Shown piece after piece: positions 25,969-33,504 of a stretch of 33,504 nucleotides of DNA. Each line of letters opens with the position of its first letter. Position 1 is the first letter of the stretch. Both the position numbers and the translations under genes were made by a program. The stretch covers positions 1 through 33,504 of the forward strand of contig QHYK01000104.1 in NCBI GenBank assembly GCA_003224085.1, written 5' to 3'. Under the pieces are notes generated by a model. It saw nothing but the letters and a program-made list of their open reading frames with translations, did not search any database and was not told the DNA's origin. This DNA is from Acidobacteriota bacterium (lineage in GTDB: Bacteria; Acidobacteriota; Terriglobia; Acidiferrales; UBA7541).

Positions 25969-26565
25969 ATGGCAAACGAATCCATCTCTCGTCGCGATAT
26001 CCTTCGGACTCTCGCAGTCGGTGCTGCCGCTGGCTCTGTCCTGCAAGTCATCCCCGCCGAGGCCGCCGAATATGTCCATCAGATGGTCCACAAAGAAAAG
26101 TCCGCCTCTCCCGCAGGGAACTACACTCCAAAATACTTTTCCGCCGCGCAATACGCCACGCTCCTTGCTCTCTGCGACATGATTATTCCCAAGGACGAAA
26201 AATCCGGGGGTGCCGTCGAAGCCGGCGCCCCCGAATTCATCGATCTCCTCACCAGCGAAAACGATAAATTCCAACTGCGCCTGGGCGGCGGCCTTTTCTG
26301 GCTCGATGGCTACTGCACTGACCATTACGGCAAGGTGTTTCTCGAATGCACTCCGGAGCAAAAGAAGGAAGTCCTTGACCTCATCGCCTTTCGCAAGAAC
26401 GCGAAGCAGGATCCTTCGCTCAGCCAGGGCGTTTCTTTCTTCGCGTTTCTTCGCAACATGACCTGCGACGGCTACTATACCAGCAAAACCGGCATCGCCG
26501 ACCTCGGGTACATCGGCAATACTTCGCTGCGCGAATTCCCCGGCTGCCCGCCCCTCCCGGAATGA
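25969..26565 (+). CDS. Gluconate 2-dehydrogenase subunit 3-family protein, Tat-exported
   Basis: The 198-residue protein starts directly after the stop of the GMC gene. The Tat signal SISRRDILRTLAVGAAAGS is followed by the subunit-3 domain: YATLLALCDMIIPKDEKSGG and the late FLRNMTCDGYYTSKTGIADLG. It should fold with the upstream GMC subunit and carry it through the Tat channel. The cytochrome c subunit that completes many such dehydrogenases is not in the window, so the electron acceptor is unknown. Confidence 0.88.
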   Translation: MANESISRRDILRTLAVGAAAGSVLQVIPAEAAEYVHQMVHKEKSASPAGNYTPKYFSAAQYATLLALCDMIIPKDEKSGGAVEAGAPEFIDLLTSENDKFQLRLGGGLFWLDGYCTDHYGKVFLECTPEQKKEVLDLIAFRKNAKQDPSLSQGVSFFAFLRNMTCDGYYTSKTGIADLGYIGNTSLREFPGCPPLPE

Positions 26566-26678
26566 CGTCCGCCTAAGGCGCGTGTAGCACCTGCTTTCGC
26601 TGCTGTGGAAGTCGGTAAGGACGATCACGTAGCATCCGCTTTACGCAGCTGCCGCTCCCGCGCGCTACTCTCGAAGTT

Positions 26679-27128
26679 TCAAACAGCTGAGCGATGCGAC
26701 GCCGCAGCCTTCCATTTCCCGTTTTTCCGGACAAACGTATCCGTGAAGATGATTCTGGCTGTGACCGGCTGGCCTTTAAAGTTTCCTGCCTGCTCGGCGC
26801 CGCCCGTCACGACAGCGGAGTTCCCGTACTCGCAGACGTGCATATCAGAAAGCTTGATGGACTGTAGCTTCAGATGGCCTGATTTCACCACTGCAAGAAC
26901 TCCCTGTTTGTCAGTCCGCTGGCTGTGTTCGTCCGTATCCACATAAGTATCGACAAAAATGGAATCGAGCGCCGCAGAATCACCCTTCACCAGCGCACCT
27001 ACCCATTTGTTTTCGAGATCCATATGCGCCTGAGTAGTTCCAGTGGCTCCCTGTTCTGCCTTTTTGTTTGTTTGCGCCGATGCCAGGAGCCCCGACAACA
27101 CCATGGCGAAGACCATGAACTTTTTCAT
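26679..27128 (-). CDS. Secreted SnoaL/DUF4440-like (NTF2 fold) protein
   Basis: The 149-residue protein starts at the ATG at 27128, which has GGAGG seven nt before it. A signal peptide (MKKFMVFAMVLSGLLASAQ) is followed by an NTF2-like domain: LENKWVGALVKGDSAALDSIF, then VDTDEHSQRTDKQG and a closing FVRKNGKWKAAASH. This matches DUF4440/SnoaL-like proteins, small cone-shaped folds used as enzymes or ligand-binding proteins. Exported acidobacterial copies are common and mostly uncharacterised. It is divergent from the GT39 gene with 66 nt between them. Confidence 0.8.
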   Translation of the reverse strand: MKKFMVFAMVLSGLLASAQTNKKAEQGATGTTQAHMDLENKWVGALVKGDSAALDSIFVDTYVDTDEHSQRTDKQGVLAVVKSGHLKLQSIKLSDMHVCEYGNSAVVTGGAEQAGNFKGQPVTARIIFTDTFVRKNGKWKAAASHRSAV

Positions 27129-27194
27129 GTTTGTCGCCTCCGTGCCTGGATTCTCGGAGTTATCTCCATTGCAGTCAAGCCATCCGTTGTCGCC

Positions 27195-28880
27195 ATGCAC
27201 AATAGCGTGTCGGTTTCTTGCTTCCCTCGCTTCGTGCACCATTGCGATGAATCCGGCGTGTTGTTATTCTTGCTCGCCTTGTCCTCCACGCTCCTCGAGC
27301 ATGACTCCTCTTCCCGGCTTTCGTTGTGGCCGTGGGTTTACCTTATTTCGCTCGGCTATTTCGCTCTGCACATGACGACGGCCACGCGCTACGGCTACTT
27401 CCGCGACGCGCTGTACTACCTCGCCTGCGCCGACCATCTCGCGTTCGGCTACGTTGATCAGCCCCCGTTTTTTCCTTTCATTGCCTGGATCGCGCGACAT
27501 ACCCTCGGCACCTCGCTCCCCGCGCTGAGTTTTTGGCCCGCCCTGGCCGGAGCTGCACGCATCGTCTTGATCGCTGCATTCGCTCGTGAACTCGGCGCAA
27601 AGCGCTTTGGCGCCGCACTCGCCGCCGCGCTGGCGGCCACTCCCGCGGTGTGGTGGGTCATGGACCATCAGTTCGCCATGAACACCTTCGAAGCGTTGTT
27701 CTGGACGGGCTGCGCTTACGCGATCCTGCGAATGATTCAAACGCAAAATCCGAAACTCTGGCTCGCCTTCGGCGCCATCGCCGGCCTTGGACTAGAAAAC
27801 AAATATTCCATTGCGGTTTTTGGCTTCGCTCTGCTGCTCGGACTGCTTCTCACGCAACAGCGAAAATTGTTGTTCACGCCTTGGCTTTTCGCCGGCGGAG
27901 CCCTCGCTCTTCTGATTTTTCTTCCCAACTTGGTTTGGAACATCCGGCATCACTGGCCGTTTCTCGAGCTGATGCACAACATTGGCGTCACTGGCAAGGA
28001 CATCGCCTATCCGCCCGCCGCCTACATCGCGCAACAAATTGTTATGATGAATCCCCTCAGTTTTCCGTTTTGGTTCGGAGGCCTGCTCTTTTATTTTTTC
28101 TCTCGTGGCGCAAAACCGTATCGAGCGTTTGGCTGGACTTTCCTCGTCACCGTCGCGTTTTTCCTCATTTCCCACGGCAAAGATTATTATTCCGCTCCGG
28201 CGTATCCAATTTTGCTTGCCACAGGCGCGGCCGCTGCCGAGCTTCTGCTCTCGAGCATAGCAGTGCAGCAAGCAAAGGATCAGCAGACGCCTCCGCAGCC
28301 GTCCAAATGGCGCGCTGCCCTAAAACCGGTCTGTTTCACTTGGATTGCCATCGGCGTTGCGCTTCCTCTGCCCATCGTTCTTCCGGTGCTCCCGCTCGAT
28401 GCTCTCGTGCGCTACCTGTCGCATTCGCCGTTGCAGCCCAAACCCACCGAGCGCAGCTTCGTCGGCACGCCGCTGCCGCAGTATTTCGCCGACGAACTTC
28501 CCTGGGAGCGGCAGGTCGCCGCGGTCGCCCGCGTCTATCACTCGTTGTCGCCGGAAGAGCAGGCCAAAGCCGCCATTTTTTGCGACAACTACGGCCAGGC
28601 CGGCGCCATTGACTTTTTCGGACCGCGCTACGGCCTGCCGAAAGCCATCAGTGGCCATCAGAATTATTTTCTCTGGGGGCCGCGCAACTACACCGGTGAG
28701 ATGGTCATTCTGGTCGGCGTGCCGGAATCGGATGCGCGCAAGCAATTCGCCTCCGTCGAAGTCGCCGCAACTTTGAACATTCCTTACGCCTATGCTTACG
28801 AGACACGCCCGATTCTGCTCTGCCGCGGCTTGAAGGGGAACCTGCAAACGCTCTGGCCACGCGTCAAGTATTGGCGCTGA
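27195..28880 (+). CDS. GT39-type (ArnT/PMT-like) membrane glycosyltransferase
   Basis: The ATG at 27195 gives 561 residues; the true start may be nearer the first membrane segment (LWPWVYLISLGYFALHM), and the frame is open further upstream without support. About ten hydrophobic segments follow. The first outer loop reads YGYFRDALYYLACADHLAFGY and continues VDQPP, the hallmark of GT39/PMT_2 proteins. The usual Asp-Glu pair is here Asp-Ala. ENKYSIAVFG and GKDYYSAPAYPILLATGA are other family signatures. The soluble C-terminus has a conserved-looking FCDNYGQAGAIDFFGPRYGLP. These enzymes move a sugar from a polyprenyl-phosphate donor to lipid or protein on the outer face of the membrane. A strong terminator (29077-29118) follows. 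Confidence 0.82.
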   Translation: MHNSVSVSCFPRFVHHCDESGVLLFLLALSSTLLEHDSSSRLSLWPWVYLISLGYFALHMTTATRYGYFRDALYYLACADHLAFGYVDQPPFFPFIAWIARHTLGTSLPALSFWPALAGAARIVLIAAFARELGAKRFGAALAAALAATPAVWWVMDHQFAMNTFEALFWTGCAYAILRMIQTQNPKLWLAFGAIAGLGLENKYSIAVFGFALLLGLLLTQQRKLLFTPWLFAGGALALLIFLPNLVWNIRHHWPFLELMHNIGVTGKDIAYPPAAYIAQQIVMMNPLSFPFWFGGLLFYFFSRGAKPYRAFGWTFLVTVAFFLISHGKDYYSAPAYPILLATGAAAAELLLSSIAVQQAKDQQTPPQPSKWRAALKPVCFTWIAIGVALPLPIVLPVLPLDALVRYLSHSPLQPKPTERSFVGTPLPQYFADELPWERQVAAVARVYHSLSPEEQAKAAIFCDNYGQAGAIDFFGPRYGLPKAISGHQNYFLWGPRNYTGEMVILVGVPESDARKQFASVEVAATLNIPYAYAYETRPILLCRGLKGNLQTLWPRVKYWR

Positions 28881-28942
28881 CCGCTCCCCTCCGTGCTCGC
28901 CGTCTGTTGGCATGCGTTCCCACTCTCTTCCATTTTCTATGC

Positions 28943-29110
28943 CCGACTTTTGCACAGGCATGCACAGCTTTCCACAGTTGAAATTTCAGATTTCGCTTGC
29001 CAAGAAAAATCATCAGGCTTACTCTCCGACGCAGATTGAGCCGGGAAGCCTCAAAAACTTAACGGCACAATTGAAAGAGGGCGCAGCGGTCGCAAGGCCG
29101 TTGCGCCTTC
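28943..29110 (+). repeat. 168-nt direct repeat, copy 1
   Basis: It aligns without gaps to 30068-30235 with about eleven mismatches by eye, and two identical runs of about 65 nt. It contains the palindrome TGAAATTTCA (28979-28988), a possible promoter TTGCCA (28997-29002)-17 nt-TACTCT (29020-29025), and ends in the terminator hairpin. It lies between the GT39 gene and the 3' end of the MBL-fold gene. Confidence 0.9.
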
Positions 29111-29118
29111 AATCTTTT
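29077..29118 (+). terminator. Intrinsic terminator with GCAA tetraloop (repeat copy 1)
   Basis: Left arm GAGGGCGCAGCGGTC (29077-29091), loop GCAA, right arm GGCCGTTGCGCCTTC (29096-29110): all 15 positions pair if G-U is allowed. AATCTTTT follows. It fits termination of the GT39 transcript. The stop codon of the opposite-strand gene overlaps its tail. Confidence 0.75.
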
Positions 29119-30032
29119 AGGGCTCCCTTCTGGGTGTTCAGCTCCCGATAGACCTCCTGAACAAAGGCGTCCGGCGCGACCCGCCCGTGGCCCCACTTCG
29201 CGTCGAATTCGGCGGTCGGGCGCTCCGCAATCACTTCGCTCTCCTTGCGTCCGGCATCAACCGAACGCTGCACCTCCCGGCGAACCGCCCTAATCATGTC
29301 GCAAAACGCTTTCAGGGCTCCACCGTTCGTCACTTCGCCGCGCGCGGGCACCACGTGGAACCTGGGATCCGACCACCCGTCCAGCATTTTCACGATTCCA
29401 TCGAGCGTGCCGCCGTGAACCACATCCACGGCCGGATAGCCGTCTCCCGGAAACACTTCTCCCCAGTACACGAGTTTGGCCACGTGAAAATGCACCAGCG
29501 CGTCCGCGTCGCTGTAACCGGACTTTTGTTTCACCACGTGGACGGCCTCGCCGTTGAGGTCGAAGCTCATCACGTCCGAAAACGAAACTCGCGGGCGGTC
29601 CACCCCCAGGTTCACGAACCGTTCCGACAGCGGCTTCGGCGCCCCCATTACATGCCCGCCGATCCGCTCCAGCGCCTTTTCCTGCATGGCCACGAACGCT
29701 CCGCGCCGCCCCCAGCCTGCATCTCCTTCAGAAAGCCCGGGATCCTGTGGCGCAATCAGCACATATCGCGCGGGCGACTTCGTGCGGTTCGCCAGCTCGC
29801 GGCTGATTCGCTCCGTACTGTCTGCCGACGGTGTTCCAATGAGCAGCGCCCCGTCCGGTCCCACGGAAGCGATCGCGTTGCCAGTCCTGGTGGCAAAGAC
29901 GAGCACGTTCGGTGTGACCTCCGTGATGCCCACCGTCTCCTGCGCGCTGCTCGCGGATGGCCACGAGAGCACCAATACAAGGGCCGTTGGCGACGCTGCC
30001 AGAATCCTCGCGCCCCTTTGGAAAGCCTTCAT
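29109..30032 (-). CDS. Secreted metallo-beta-lactamase-fold protein without metal ligands
   Basis: The ATG at 30032 has GGAAGGAG upstream; 307 residues result, with a signal peptide ending at SASSAQ. The fold is recognisable: VTPNVLVFATRTGNAIASVG and DGALLIGTP at the start, GYPAVDVVHGGTLDG in the middle, and a C-terminal FVQEVYRELN like exported MBL hydrolases. Each ligand position I can align is changed: HxHxDH is APQDPG (94-99), the HTDGD histidine falls in GYSDAD (172-177), GD is GE (E192), and the final GHG is ARG (R231). It is therefore probably not a zinc hydrolase and may bind a ligand or protein instead. It is enclosed by the two 168-nt repeats. Confidence 0.75.
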   Translation of the reverse strand: MKAFQRGARILAASPTALVLVLSWPSASSAQETVGITEVTPNVLVFATRTGNAIASVGPDGALLIGTPSADSTERISRELANRTKSPARYVLIAPQDPGLSEGDAGWGRRGAFVAMQEKALERIGGHVMGAPKPLSERFVNLGVDRPRVSFSDVMSFDLNGEAVHVVKQKSGYSDADALVHFHVAKLVYWGEVFPGDGYPAVDVVHGGTLDGIVKMLDGWSDPRFHVVPARGEVTNGGALKAFCDMIRAVRREVQRSVDAGRKESEVIAERPTAEFDAKWGHGRVAPDAFVQEVYRELNTQKGALKD

Positions 30033-30067
30033 TTCATTCTCCTTCCCACGCGTCGGCCTGGTGGTCT

Positions 30068-30235
30068 CCGACTTTTGCACAATCGCGCACAGCTTTCCAC
30101 AGTTGAAATTTCAGATTTCGCTTGCCAAGAAAAATCATCAGGCTTACTCTCGACCACAGATTGAGCCGGGAAGCCTCAAAAACTTAACGGCACAATTGAA
30201 AGAGGGCGCAGCGGTCGCAAGACGGTTGCGCCCTC
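30068..30235 (+). repeat. 168-nt direct repeat, copy 2
   Basis: It matches 28943-29110. The palindrome TGAAATTTCA is at 30104-30113 and the promoter-like TTGCCA-17 nt-TACTCT at 30122-30150. It fills most of the 342-nt gap 30033-30374, upstream of the MBL-fold gene and downstream of the propeller gene, both of which run on the other strand. No reading frame in it is convincing. Confidence 0.9.
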
Positions 30236-30246
30236 AAATGTTTTTT
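30202..30246 (+). terminator. Intrinsic terminator with GCAA tetraloop (repeat copy 2)
   Basis: Left arm GAGGGCGCAGCGGTC (30202-30216), loop GCAA, right arm GACGGTTGCGCCCTC (30221-30235): 13 Watson-Crick pairs, one G-U and one G-G mismatch. AAATG and then six T follow. Its T-run is on the plus strand, where no upstream protein gene exists, so it points to a plus-strand RNA. Confidence 0.7.
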
Positions 30247-30374
30247 CGTCATCTTTTTGTTCGAGTTTTTTGCCCTCTGACATGGGCATATAATTCTTGC
30301 CAGCATCCGTAGCTTGAAGCTGCCCCGCAATCTACCGACTTATCCCATTTCTCTTTTCCTTTTTCCGCTTCTTC

Positions 30375-31949
30375 TCACTTCACTAGCCCGTAGACTTCCA
30401 CTTCGTCGCGCGCGCCATAATAGACGCGGCCGTTCACGACCAGAGGAATCACGAACCGCGTGGCCATTGCGGCGCGATCGCGCTTGCTGTTTTGTTCCGA
30501 GGCGTAGAGCGGCTGTTCGATATTGTTAGCGTCGAACGCATAGAGCACGGCCGGACGTTCGGCGCCATTCCAGGTTTTGGTCGAAATAGCCCACACGATG
30601 GCGTTTTTGTTTCCATCCGAGGAAACCGACGGAGTCGCCCCGGGATTCTCGAATTTAATGCTCGAGCGCGTTTTCAGCTTGAGCTGTCCGTTCTCGAGGG
30701 CATAATCGCGCAGATAATCATCGCTGCACGCGAAGTAGACATGCCCGTTCCAATACGCCATCGCGCCATAGCCGCCGCCAGTCATGTGCATCCTCTGCAC
30801 GATGGCATCGCCTTGTTCGTGAAACTTCCCCATATTGTCGCGGTCGATTACGTAAATCGTCCCGTCTTTCCCTGGTTGCAGCAGCAGGTGGCGATGCGGT
30901 CCCGGCAGGTCAGGCAGCAGCAGCGGCCCGCTTGAACCGAGGTCGGCGTCGGCGTCGTTCAGCTGCGCCTGATTAAACGGCGTGAAGTAATCGCGCACCA
31001 CGAGCGAAGAGTTTTCCAGTCCTAGCTTCAGCAACGTGTCGCCATAGTCGCGGCCACCCCTGGCGGCGTTGAACGTGCCGTTGCCGGTCGATACGTAGAC
31101 ATTGCCATTCGCGTCCGCGCCTGGGCCTGTATCGCTGGCCCAGATGCCGCCCTCGGTGCCGTCCGGCGTGACGTTGAGCACTGCCTTCTGCGCCAGCGTT
31201 TGCGGATCGTAGGCTATCACCCAGCCGTGATAAGGATCCACGTCGCAGGAGGAACCCCAGGTGAGAAAGAGAGTGTTGTTTGCAAGCAGCAACGCCGCGC
31301 GCGGATTTTCTTTCAACGGATCGAAGCTCACCTGTCCGTTGGCACCGCCGGCTCCTTTGCCCGGTACGGAAGCGGTGATCAGACGGGGTCCGCCGAATTT
31401 TTCCGCACCGGTGGTAATCGCCAGCGCGTGCAGGAATTGAAGGTAGTGGTTGTCGCTGAAGAGGTGGCCGACCATGGCGCGCGCCAGGACGTACAACGTG
31501 CCGGATTGCAGGTCGATCACCGGCGTGGAGGTGATGCCAACCTCGGGCTGCAGGAAGGGGCATTGCACGTCGCGTGCGGGAACGGTTTCCTCGCCGCGCT
31601 TCTTGTCGAGCAAACTCACGTGCCAGAGCGGCGGATCGTTGGGGCGCTCGGCGTCGAACGCGTACACGCTGTCGTGCTCCGTGGCCACAAAGAGGACGTT
31701 GTGCCTTCCCTTGCCGGGGATTTCGACCGAGGGAAGGAACAACGGCTGCGCGTACATCGCGCCATCCACCTGAAACGCGCCCAGCTTGCCGAACTGCTGC
31801 GCGTTCACATTCTGCGGAGTCAATGTCTTCTCGTTCGGCGTCGCGCCGGTGCGCAAATTGTCGTACTGCGACGTCGCGACCTGGGCTGTGGTGCCAGCCG
31901 CGCCTAGCGCCAATGCAACTACTCCCCATGCGACCCTGAGCCGTTTCAT
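30375..31949 (-). CDS. Secreted PQQ-type beta-propeller protein
   Basis: The 524-residue protein has a signal peptide (1-23, ending GTTAQ) and a possible GGGGTGA ribosome-binding site. The sequence is a beta-propeller with repeated blades such as HNVLFVATEHDSVYAFDAE, GTLYVLARAMVG, GNVYVSTGNGTFN and DGTIYVIDRDNMGKF. These are typical of the PQQ-like (quinoprotein) repeat family. No heme-binding CXXCH is present and I see no clear PQQ-dehydrogenase active site, so it may be a structural or binding propeller. It reads towards the MBL-fold gene, 342 nt away, with repeat copy 2 between them. Confidence 0.82.
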   Translation of the reverse strand: MKRLRVAWGVVALALGAAGTTAQVATSQYDNLRTGATPNEKTLTPQNVNAQQFGKLGAFQVDGAMYAQPLFLPSVEIPGKGRHNVLFVATEHDSVYAFDAERPNDPPLWHVSLLDKKRGEETVPARDVQCPFLQPEVGITSTPVIDLQSGTLYVLARAMVGHLFSDNHYLQFLHALAITTGAEKFGGPRLITASVPGKGAGGANGQVSFDPLKENPRAALLLANNTLFLTWGSSCDVDPYHGWVIAYDPQTLAQKAVLNVTPDGTEGGIWASDTGPGADANGNVYVSTGNGTFNAARGGRDYGDTLLKLGLENSSLVVRDYFTPFNQAQLNDADADLGSSGPLLLPDLPGPHRHLLLQPGKDGTIYVIDRDNMGKFHEQGDAIVQRMHMTGGGYGAMAYWNGHVYFACSDDYLRDYALENGQLKLKTRSSIKFENPGATPSVSSDGNKNAIVWAISTKTWNGAERPAVLYAFDANNIEQPLYASEQNSKRDRAAMATRFVIPLVVNGRVYYGARDEVEVYGLVK

Positions 31950-32114
31950 TGGTCACCCCATTTTTTGAGGGAGGCAAGCCGTTTCCCCCACGCGTGCGTT
32001 CCATTGGACCTAGAGAAGCGGCTTTTTGTGGCGGGGCATTCGATGTGAACGCACGGTGCCCCCGGGGCCCCCCCCCACCCCTTGTTGTAAGGAAGAAAGT
32101 TTGCGCGGCAGCCC

Positions 32115-32567
32115 GTGCTTACGGTGGGGGCGGGCGTCGACGGTGGGAAAACGCCGGAAGTCGTTTTCAAGCACATTCTTTTTCCCACGGATTTTGGCAC
32201 TGGCTGCACGCGGGAAGCGGCCTTCGCTTTCTCGATTGGGCAGGAGCACGATGCAACACTGACGCTGTTGCGCGTGGTTCGTCATCTCGAGCATTGCTCC
32301 GAGGACGGGTTGACGCTCAAGCGAGAGTCCGTCAAGCGGCAGTTACGGGACCTCGTTCCCAGCGGCGCGGAGGCCTGGTGCGAGACGAACTTTCGCCTGG
32401 CCGCCGGAGATCCTGCCGGGGAGATTCTACACTTTGTGGAAAAAACCAAGGCGGATTTGATGGTGATGAGCAAAGGCGCGGACTGGCTTGCGGGCCATGT
32501 GCCGGGAACGACGGCGTATAAAGTGGTCTCGAAGGCGCATTCTCCGGTGCTGACCGTGAGGTCTTGA
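32115..32567 (+). CDS. Universal stress protein, C-terminal domain of a tandem USP
   Basis: From the GTG at 32115 there are 150 residues; the frame is open back to 32091. VFKHILFPTDFGTGC begins a normal USP domain, and DLMVMSKGADWLAGHVPGTTA with SPVLTVRS ends it. The residues before it, RQPVLTVGAGVDGG, look like the end of a preceding USP domain plus linker, as in tandem USP proteins. The first domain is not present as an intact frame, so this is probably a 5'-truncated gene and the start codon is a guess. USPs bind nucleotides and act in stress survival. Confidence 0.7.
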   Translation: MLTVGAGVDGGKTPEVVFKHILFPTDFGTGCTREAAFAFSIGQEHDATLTLLRVVRHLEHCSEDGLTLKRESVKRQLRDLVPSGAEAWCETNFRLAAGDPAGEILHFVEKTKADLMVMSKGADWLAGHVPGTTAYKVVSKAHSPVLTVRS

Positions 32568-32602
32568 GGCAATCAGAAGCAGCCGGTAGGGCGACCAGCA
32601 AT

Positions 32603-32658
32603 GTGCGTCACGCCGCCGGTGTTCCCCATTTCAGGAACTCGCTCCAGCACTGACGCAC
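32603..32658. repeat. Inverted repeat next to the transposon end
   Basis: GTGCGTCA (32603-32610) and TGACGCAC (32651-32658) are perfect 8-bp arms 40 nt apart, in the gap between the USP stop and the right end of the IS element. The role is unknown. Confidence 0.35.
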
Positions 32659-32660
32659 TA

Positions 32661-33504
32661 GTTGACGACTCCCACGCCAAAGGCGGGGGATTCCTCGGAG
32701 TTACTATGCGGCATGGCCACATACCTCCGACGATGTTTCCTGCTTCACGGGCCCACGCCTAAACTCGCGTTTAGGTCCTACTGTGCCTCCACAGGCTAAT
32801 ACCGAGCGTCCCTCGGCTAAGATTCTCAAACCTTCGACGAAAATGTTTACGACGGCATTCTCGTCCCGCTGGTGTTCGGTATGGCAACCCGAACACGTCC
32901 AACGGTCTTGGAGTTTGAGGTCTACATTCTTTTGGTGACAAATGCAGCACAACTTTGATGACGGGAAGAACCTAGCTACTTTGACGAGCGTTCTTCCATG
33001 CCACTTGCACTTGTATTCCAACATGCGAACGAACTCACCGAAGCCCGCATCCGAGATGGCTCTGGCTAAGCGGCGATTCTTAAGTATGTTCTTGGTGCCG
33101 AGCGTCTCAACCATAATCACTTGGTTTTTGTGAATCAGTTGCGTGCTCAATTTCTGAAGAAAATCCGTGCGCAGATCGGTTACTCGCTGACAAATATGAG
33201 CCACCCTGCTACGCGCCTTCTCGCGGTTCTTAGAACCCTGCTCACAACGGCTCAAACGCTTGTGGGCGGTGCGGAGCTTTGACAGTGCCGCCAACCAAGG
33301 ACGAGGCAACGACACCTGAGACCACCTTCTTCCATTGAAGAAGTTGAACGTCTTGGTGTTCATGTCCACCGATAGGCGATGGCTCGCGGGGCCTACAACA
33401 GGCAACGGCTGCTCTACTTGGAACGAAACATAATATCGACCTGCAGGCGTCATGCTCAGCACAACCGAGGATGGCTCGCCGCTTACACGACGGTGCCAAA
33501 CAAT
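32661..33504 (-). mobile_element. IS200/IS605-type element carrying tnpB (cut by window edge)
   Basis: Downstream of the tnpB stop the minus strand reads GAATCCCCCGCC-TTT-GGCGTGGG, then AGTCGTCAAC. This is the subterminal hairpin and end expected at the right end of tnpB-bearing IS605-family elements, placing the end near 32661. The left end is outside the window, so a tnpA transposase cannot be judged. Confidence 0.6.
32704..33504 (-). CDS. tnpB: TnpB-family RNA-guided nuclease, N-terminus outside window
   Basis: The frame is open from the window edge to a TAG at 32704. Visible family blocks, in order: VSMTPAGRYYVSF-like strand (as SMTPAGRYYVSFQVE), VDMNTKTF (first RuvC Asp), VETLGTKNILKNRRLARAIS (RuvC Glu), the zinc ribbon CCICH...CSGCH, and HQRDENAVVNI (last RuvC Asp). 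All three catalytic acids and four zinc cysteines are present. TnpB uses an RNA made from the element's right end to cut DNA and keep the element in place. The gene appears less GC-rich than its neighbours, as expected for a transposon gene. The N-terminal part is missing only because the window ends. Confidence 0.85.
   Translation of the reverse strand: MVWHRRVSGEPSSVVLSMTPAGRYYVSFQVEQPLPVVGPASHRLSVDMNTKTFNFFNGRRWSQVSLPRPWLAALSKLRTAHKRLSRCEQGSKNREKARSRVAHICQRVTDLRTDFLQKLSTQLIHKNQVIMVETLGTKNILKNRRLARAISDAGFGEFVRMLEYKCKWHGRTLVKVARFFPSSKLCCICHQKNVDLKLQDRWTCSGCHTEHQRDENAVVNIFVEGLRILAEGRSVLACGGTVGPKREFRRGPVKQETSSEVCGHAA

Follow-up and report, generated by a model that had tools for sequence, protein, structure and literature searches.

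The window analysed here, a 33,504-nt contig of an Acidobacteriota bacterium, carries two near-identical repeats, and the question is whether these are genes for a small RNA or traces of a mobile element or a duplication. The initial annotation had noticed a near-identical pair 1,125 nt apart, and this was borne out: the repeats are 170 nt each (28943-29112 and 30068-30237), lie in direct orientation at that distance and are 94% identical without gaps. The remaining direct-repeat families in 26000-33504 are 20-25 nt only. The promoter-like arrangement TTGCCA-17-TACTCT was found in copy 1 and in copy 2, and the 15-bp hairpin capped by GCAA is complete in copy 1 and carries one mismatch near the tip in copy 2. 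The first reading, in which each repeat encodes a small RNA with its own promoter and terminator, was correct in its observation and largely right in its interpretation, but too narrow; it overlooked an upstream triple CACA box and a 5' hairpin (H1), and did not recognise the unit as the monomer of a tandem-array RNA family. Conserved boundaries, fixed promoter spacing, covarying pairs in the terminator hairpin (H2) and syntenic inheritance now give strong support to an RNA of ∼88 nt with its own promoter and terminator. Each repeat can, with strong support, be read as a complete transcription unit made of a triple box, -35 and -10 elements, a two-hairpin RNA and a U-tract (Table 1), and the repeats almost certainly belong to a family of RNA genes.

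Table 1. Predicted elements of the two repeats, in window coordinates
Feature	Positions	Strand	Basis or remark
Upstream triple box, copy 1 (TGCACA-N4-TGCACA-N4-TCCACA, 10-bp steps)	28951..28976	+	box scans, promoter alignment
Palindrome TGAAATTTCA, copy 1	28979..28988	.	not conserved, probably incidental
-35 TTGCCA, copy 1	28997..29002	+	20 nt from box in 52/53 loci
-10 TACTCT, copy 1	29020..29025	+	17-nt spacer in 51/53 loci; script favoured values near 17
RNA, copy 1, ∼88 nt	29032..29119	+	start placed 6-7 nt after the -10; R1 and R2 matches; fold
Hairpin H1, copy 1 (outer stem, 2x2 internal loop, inner AAG/CUU stem, A-rich loop)	29034..29072	+	
Hairpin H2, copy 1 (15 bp, GCAA loop, terminator stem)	29077..29110	+	
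T-rich tail, copy 1 (meets stop codon, 29109-29111, of a convergent minus-strand ORF)	29111..29119	+	
Upstream triple box, copy 2	30076..30101	+	box scans
Palindrome TGAAATTTCA, copy 2	30104..30113	.	not conserved
-35 TTGCCA, copy 2	30122..30127	+	promoter alignment
-10 TACTCT, copy 2	30145..30150	+	promoter alignment
RNA, copy 2, ∼88 nt (duplicate absent from three relatives compared)	30157..30244	+	models, fold, synteny
Hairpin H1, copy 2 (identical to H1 of copy 1)	30159..30197	+	fold
Hairpin H2, copy 2 (one mismatch, terminator stem)	30202..30235	+	fold
T-rich tail, copy 2	30236..30244	+	

Both 88-nt RNAs were predicted to be far more stable than shuffled sequences (z -6.7 for copy 1 and -6.1 for copy 2; none of 200 shuffles was as stable). 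A plain consensus scan of 28800-30400 called no sigma-70 promoter, TACTCT being a weak -10, and the three terminator-like sites in the same stretch do not exceed what shuffles give (mean 2.4). The argument is carried by comparison with relatives. At the sequence level, this comparison established the gene boundaries, the promoter geometry, the covariation of H2, the homology of arrays and monomers, and inheritance at shared sites.

The search for further copies in relatives, which the initial annotation had proposed, was productive. A DNA search hit 19 of 61 genomes, every one belonging to the same genus, and the window's own genome (G000) holds four copies. Within the genus, 57 RNA loci were placed in 29 of 36 genomes, a count that leaves out L183 and two doubtful single units, L119 (G033) and L120 (G025, lacking a box); numerous antisense matches to these hairpins were removed from the locus lists. 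A covariance model built from single units (R1) matched in 30 of the 36 genus genomes at E 0.01, with at least one of them, G004, entering the tally through a chance match (L115). In G004 (C88, L183:1826-2230), a triple box and promoter are followed by a strongly diverged array-like RNA with a GC-rich hairpin and a T-tract, matched only at E 0.13 by R2, a model built from array units only. R2 recovered the window copies at E 1.3e-11 and 9.3e-11 and, family-wide, gave matches in 35 of 89 genomes and 5 of 13 genera at E 0.001. Neither box nor RNA was found by these searches in five of the 36 genus genomes (G035, G010, G007, G002 and G034), so the RNA is either dispensable there or has diverged past detection. 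Outside the family (f1), R1 matched in 8 of 299 genomes of the class; the sole one of the eight inspected, in G282 (L112), is a plain terminator without a box. Inside f1, loci L113, L115, L116, L117, L121 and L122 were read as chance terminators, and the R1 match in G277 was left uninspected.

Among public records, the core pattern was found in 25 stretches, all from Acidobacteria MAGs, of which 21 are titled gp2 and one 'Candidatus Acidiferrum typicum'. ARAGORN found no tRNA or tmRNA in the window, and Rfam 15 gave no family match to it at curated cut-offs. When the threshold for 28900-30300 was relaxed to E 5, nothing appeared beyond two weak matches to other families (E 1.1 and 1.5), and eight further loci, five of them with arrays, gave none up to E 1. 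Acido-1 (RF01686) and Acido-Lenti-1 (RF01687), named in passages of PMC2864571 as structured non-coding RNA candidates of Acidobacteria, share the host phylum with this RNA; they had been suggested as relatives, but neither the window nor the eight further loci matched in Rfam, and the suggestion is excluded as far as Rfam models go. No description of this RNA was found among the papers listed by searches of open-licence literature, and within the bounds of those searches and Rfam 15 the family, from uncultivated soil Acidobacteria, is apparently undescribed.

In the aligned copies a common order was observed, namely three TSCACA boxes in 10-bp steps, a less conserved spacer, TTGCCA or TTGACG, 17 nt and TANNNT, followed by CAGATTGA, two hairpins and T-rich DNA. 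A scan of the window that allowed up to 3 mismatches found the triple box three times, twice without any mismatch; shuffled sequence gave 0.18 matches on average. Within the stretch examined, the box was present at up to 3 mismatches in 56 of 64 loci; the 130-nt search stretch of the promoter script missed the boxes of L111 and L114, which the class-wide box search listed. Where box and promoter were both found (53 loci), the box-to--35 distance is 20 nt in 52, the -35 reads TTGCCA or TTGACG in 50, with a TANNNT -10 at fixed distance, and the -35/-10 spacer is 17 nt in 51, a value favoured by the script, which preferred spacers near 17 nt. Exceptions in the box steps are an 11-nt step in L048 and a 9-nt step between two boxes in L108 and L110, and one or two boxes are lost in both L034 copies, L042 and L037:5708.

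The triple box is largely confined to these genes. In the window's own genome (6.8 Mb), four sites were found at up to 2 mismatches, all at RNA copies, and the reversed control gave none; across the 36 genus genomes, 62 sites were found at up to 1 mismatch, compared with one in the control. Fifty-two of the 62 lie 55-66 nt upstream of an RNA, one of them an overlapping register. The other ten comprise two that look like decayed single units, one before the divergent array-like L183, three (in two genomes) that precede an 89-aa gene, L186, L187 and L188, where no such RNA was seen in the 650 nt read, and G033:C105, which was left uninspected. In the two decayed cases, L182 (G017:C14) and L185 (G011:C509), the box and the -35 are kept and the RNA body has decayed; these are possibly dead single units, in genomes that have a five-unit array. 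An exact triple-box site was present in 28 of the 299 genomes of the class sample, 25 of them in f1. Outside f1, the hits in G237 and G239 showed no such RNA in the 400 nt read. In G298 (L218:1500-2600), of another family of the class, a triple CACA box stands before an rRNA operon that has tandem promoters and a 133-nt internal repeat; the box belongs to the leader of that operon, is probably due to chance, and was dropped.

The palindrome TGAAATTTCA, to which the initial annotation had drawn attention, is present in both copies, but most of the 34 single-unit copies read GAAACTTTCA at this place. It is probably incidental, because conservation in the spacer around it is lower than in the box (mean majority fractions over these copies of 0.73 and 0.87, respectively), and its reading as an operator was rejected for lack of conservation among these copies. 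The rigid box spacing in front of a weak promoter would read as an activator site. The boxes might be DnaA boxes and the RNA a replication- or cell-cycle-coupled transcript: the DnaA box consensus is TTWTNCACA, which TTTTGCACA fits, the boxes of some relatives read TTTTTCCACA and ATCATCCACA, and in the window's own genome a TTTTCCACA is found ∼0.6 kb from the DnaA match, on its upstream side. We consider this unlikely, given that the middle and third boxes agree poorly with the complete 9-mer, that the 10-bp spacing in one orientation speaks against DnaA, and that the triple box, at up to 2 mismatches, occurs nowhere else in that genome. OmpR/PhoB-type regulators act on phased direct repeats, and by this analogy such a regulator is the other candidate for the triple box. 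The DnaA reading touches the regulator only and is compatible with the preferred explanation of the RNA itself.

A covariation check, also proposed at the outset, showed that H2 covaries both in single units (n = 34) and in array units (n = 48). In the single units, 92.9% of cells pair, seven pairs show a change on both sides, and the five pair measures were reached by 0 to 2 of 500 shuffles. In the array units, which are separate from the 34 but were found with R1 and had their columns fitted to the structure by eye, so that the result leans towards structure, 83.3% of cells pair; the percentage paired, the double-change cells and the covariation score exceeded all 500 shuffles, and the other two measures stayed within them (pairs changed on both sides, 74 of 500; further pair types, 295 of 500). 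This alignment (A4) holds 48 of the 75 sense array matches, with incomplete matches, the GGGUAAAACC-type arrays, L094, L095, the single-unit L118 and some matches of L097, L098, L099, L106, L108, L110, L111 and L114 excluded. Nine of the 11 double-changed pairs lie in H2, and RNAalifold on the array units alone gave eight pairs, all in H2; on this basis H2 is a firm prediction and H1 a likely one. Inner array units keep H2 with no T-tract behind it, so its conservation is not for termination alone. The H2 loop is of the UNAC kind in 57 of 82 units and of the GNRA kind in 17 (together 74 of 82), and UNAC loops resemble GNRA loops in fold. The lengths of the H1 loop differ by single nucleotides, which argues against a protein-coding role.

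In many relatives, the ∼76-nt unit is repeated two to seven times in one RNA behind the same promoter type. Arrays of contiguous units comprise two in G033, three in G024, G005, G009, G023 and G026, five in G011, G015, G017, G028, G029, G013 (where the fourth unit was placed by spacing) and G027, and about six in G014 and in other genera; longer irregular arrays occur in G025 and G006. The RNAs of G031, G003, G020 and G021, 444-524 nt long, contain six or seven GGGUAAAACC-like loops ∼75 nt apart and have the same kind of promoter. In G026 and G033 the arrays are accompanied by single units, and at least seven genomes (G000, G008, G012, G018, G019, G030 and G032) have monomer genes only. Such scattered one-module genes number three to five in the window's genome and its closest relatives, and dispersed copies keep the whole unit, from box through terminator.

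Neighbouring genes define three shared sites. At site A, that of the window, genes for a GMC oxidoreductase, a gluconate 2-dehydrogenase subunit 3-like protein and a PMT_2 glycosyltransferase are followed by the RNA, an arrangement common to G012, G018, G019, G030 and G032 as well. Site B precedes a gene for a ∼1,100-aa sortilin/BNR protein, and site C lies between gene clusters #0/#2/#3/#8 and #5/#10/#15. Between clusters #0 and #15/#19, a five-unit array occupies site C in G011, G015, G017 and G029, and one or two single units occupy it in G000, G018, G019, G030 and G032; G012 fits by a contig-end fragment only. Since both occupy this syntenic site, arrays and monomers are alternative forms of one gene. 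The genes adjoining different loci are unrelated, which argues for action in trans.

Synteny also separated the two copies of the window. Each of G018, G019 and G030 has a single RNA at site A. It sits where copy 1 lies in the window; the place of copy 2 holds no RNA in any of the three, being shorter by roughly 290-310 nt in G019 and G030 and filled in G018 by unrelated DNA of the same length. In the tree of single-unit copies the G000 pair groups together (98/87), although the tree is too poorly resolved to sort loci (same-site copies are 78-81% alike on average and different-site copies 78%). From the absence in these three relatives and the grouping of the pair, copy 1 is the older site and copy 2 a recent duplicate. 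Of the alternative raised at the outset, a mobile element or a duplication scar, duplication thus stands for copy 2 only, and a mobile element is unsupported. That the repeats are a mobile repeat (MITE/REP-like) or a mere duplication scar is very improbable. Such a reading could draw on the sharp ends of a multi-copy 170-nt unit, on copy 2 being extra in this genome and on a TnpB-like ORF ∼2.5 kb away at the contig end; it is opposed by copies at shared syntenic sites in several genomes, by functional conservation (fixed promoter spacing and a covarying H2), by searches of 72,556 plasmid and 50,697 phage records, neither of which gave a match, and by the absence of a transposase among the recurrent neighbour genes typed. 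MITE/REP elements would have varied insertion sites, terminal inverted repeats or target duplications, and a link to a transposase, whereas shared sites were found here, with only copy 2 extra and in one genome. The ORF itself (32704-33462, minus strand) is TnpB/OrfB_IS605-like, with a Cas12f1-like TNB domain. A reading of the repeats as TnpB guide RNA was set aside, as ∼2.5 kb separate the end of the ORF from copy 2 and no such ORF turned up repeatedly among the typed neighbours.

Based on these features, a mechanism can be proposed. A putative DNA-binding activator would bind the three TSCACA boxes on one helix face, 20 nt upstream of the weak -35/-10 elements, and its binding would switch transcription on, with the RNA starting near 29032 or 30157. 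The transcript would fold into H1, with its A-rich loop, and H2, with a GNRA/UNAC tetraloop, and would end with H2 plus the U-tract; H1 and H2 together would form a ∼76-nt binding module. Several modules per genome would be provided by scattered one-module genes or, alternatively, by a single RNA in which two to seven stand in tandem. One structured module supplied in several doses, with little conservation elsewhere, can be read as a platform for multivalent binding, and its most likely job would be to bind and titrate a putative RNA-binding protein much as CsrB/RsmZ do, though both the protein and the loop would be different ones. There is about an even chance that the family is a signal-induced multivalent RNA that titrates such a protein.

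The strongest competing reading is that the RNA base-pairs by way of its A-rich H1 loop. Qrr and LhrC RNAs exist in several near-identical copies that act on shared mRNA targets, and the present copies could form such a set, with the H1 loop CNUNAAAAA as the seed. Multiple copies of 88 nt with an intrinsic terminator and a U-tail would agree with this, the A-rich loop would also suit base pairing, and in single units this loop is little changed (CCUCAAAAA in 9 of 34, CCUUAAAAA in 6 of 34). In arrays, however, the H1 loops vary from unit to unit (GUUAGAAA, CUUAAGAA, CUCGAAGC and others), little is unpaired outside the loops, and up to seven tandem structured units would be unusual for a seed-pairing RNA, so that we regard a set of base-pairing RNAs as somewhat unlikely. 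It is less likely still that the family is a structural or ribonucleoprotein RNA (scaffold, storage or stability) in which the repeat number sets size and not titration. The array folds are indeed very stable (z -8.5 for a 389-nt array and -10.2 for a 452-nt array) and include predicted pairing between units, and tetraloops of the GNRA/UNAC kinds often make tertiary contacts. Nevertheless, at least seven genomes have the unit in monomer genes only, and at one syntenic site single units in some genomes stand in for an array in others, a pattern that suits dosage or valency better than it does a fixed architecture.

The titration reading was compared with known systems. CsrB has a repeat structure of similar hairpins, and RNAs of the CsrB/RsmZ type expose several GGA motifs in hairpin loops. 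The present family resembles CsrB/CsrC and RsmX/RsmY/RsmZ in having an array of similar hairpins or several one-copy paralogues, and Gac/Rsm RNAs, with their GacA UAS, in having a dedicated upstream activator-like sequence: one to seven units were found under their own triple box, a single dedicated predicted activator site at fixed distance. Unlike CsrB/Rsm RNAs, the unit here is a regular ∼76-nt two-hairpin module with H2 capped by UNAC or GNRA. GGA was seen in the H1 apical loop of none of the 34 single units and 2 of the 48 array units, and in the H2 loop region of neither set. CsrA (PF02599) gave no match in the window's own genome and 27 further genus genomes (28 of 36 searched; MAGs 63-99% complete); it was positive in 3 of the 46 genomes searched, all from other families, and in 3 of 14 control genomes. 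Membership in the CsrB/RsmZ type was rejected on two grounds, the lack of GGA loops and the failure to find CsrA in any of the 28 genus genomes covered. According to passages of PMC7911923, Gac/Rsm RNA genes have an upstream GacA UAS, and the number of Rsm paralogues grows by duplication (rsmX-1/rsmX-2), as the copy number does in the present family; the triple box (three TSCACA, 10 bp) differs from the GacA site quoted there. We would propose only tentatively, at less than even confidence, that this is an independently built second 'Csr-like' system without detectable CsrA, in which a dedicated activator drives a modular RNA and a putative new RNA-binding protein is titrated; equally tentative, within the same reading, is the proposal that valency was set by evolution, through tandem two-hairpin modules (two to seven) or scattered one-module genes.

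Qrr RNAs of Vibrio and other sibling sRNAs also comprise several near-identical short genes with upstream activator sites and intrinsic terminators, and the family, with its activator-like box and predicted terminator, shares these traits. It differs from Qrr in that the unit also occurs in tandem arrays inside one RNA and in that the promoters are sigma-70-like (the TTGCCA/TTGACG -35 of 50/53 loci, with its TANNNT -10) instead of containing sigma-54 elements.

Two protein-coding features near these loci were also recorded. A family of 89-aa basic proteins (MLFATVSRGKK...RYHVxLGKxGPYIP...SYLANGYSL), without a Pfam or NCBIfam match, occurs in 17 of the 36 genus genomes, for example at G020:C9:49400-49666 (L189), G001:C282 (L194) and G003:C3 (L191), and in the window's own genome at C120:13227-13490 and C110:368-592. 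Upstream of the gene, several relatives have two or three of these same CACA boxes at 10-bp steps; in the window's own genome, the C120 copy has one TTTTCCACA and the C110 copy none. In G014 and G023 the gene lies 3-5 kb from the RNA. The protein is a possible partner or co-regulated gene of the RNA. Between the two copies in the window, a minus-strand ORF (29109-30080) shows weak similarity to TIGR04559 (quinoprotein-relay zinc metallohydrolases; E 5e-6, far below the cut-off) and matches no Pfam family above cut-off.

The analysis adds an apparently undescribed RNA family, with its promoter and a likely regulator site, to soil bacteria known here only from MAGs. Because one syntenic site holds either an array or single units, RNA valency and gene dosage can replace each other in this family. 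If the titration reading is true, the RNA would be part of a Csr-type circuit without CsrA, and a tagged RNA would serve as a direct bait for the RNA-binding protein.
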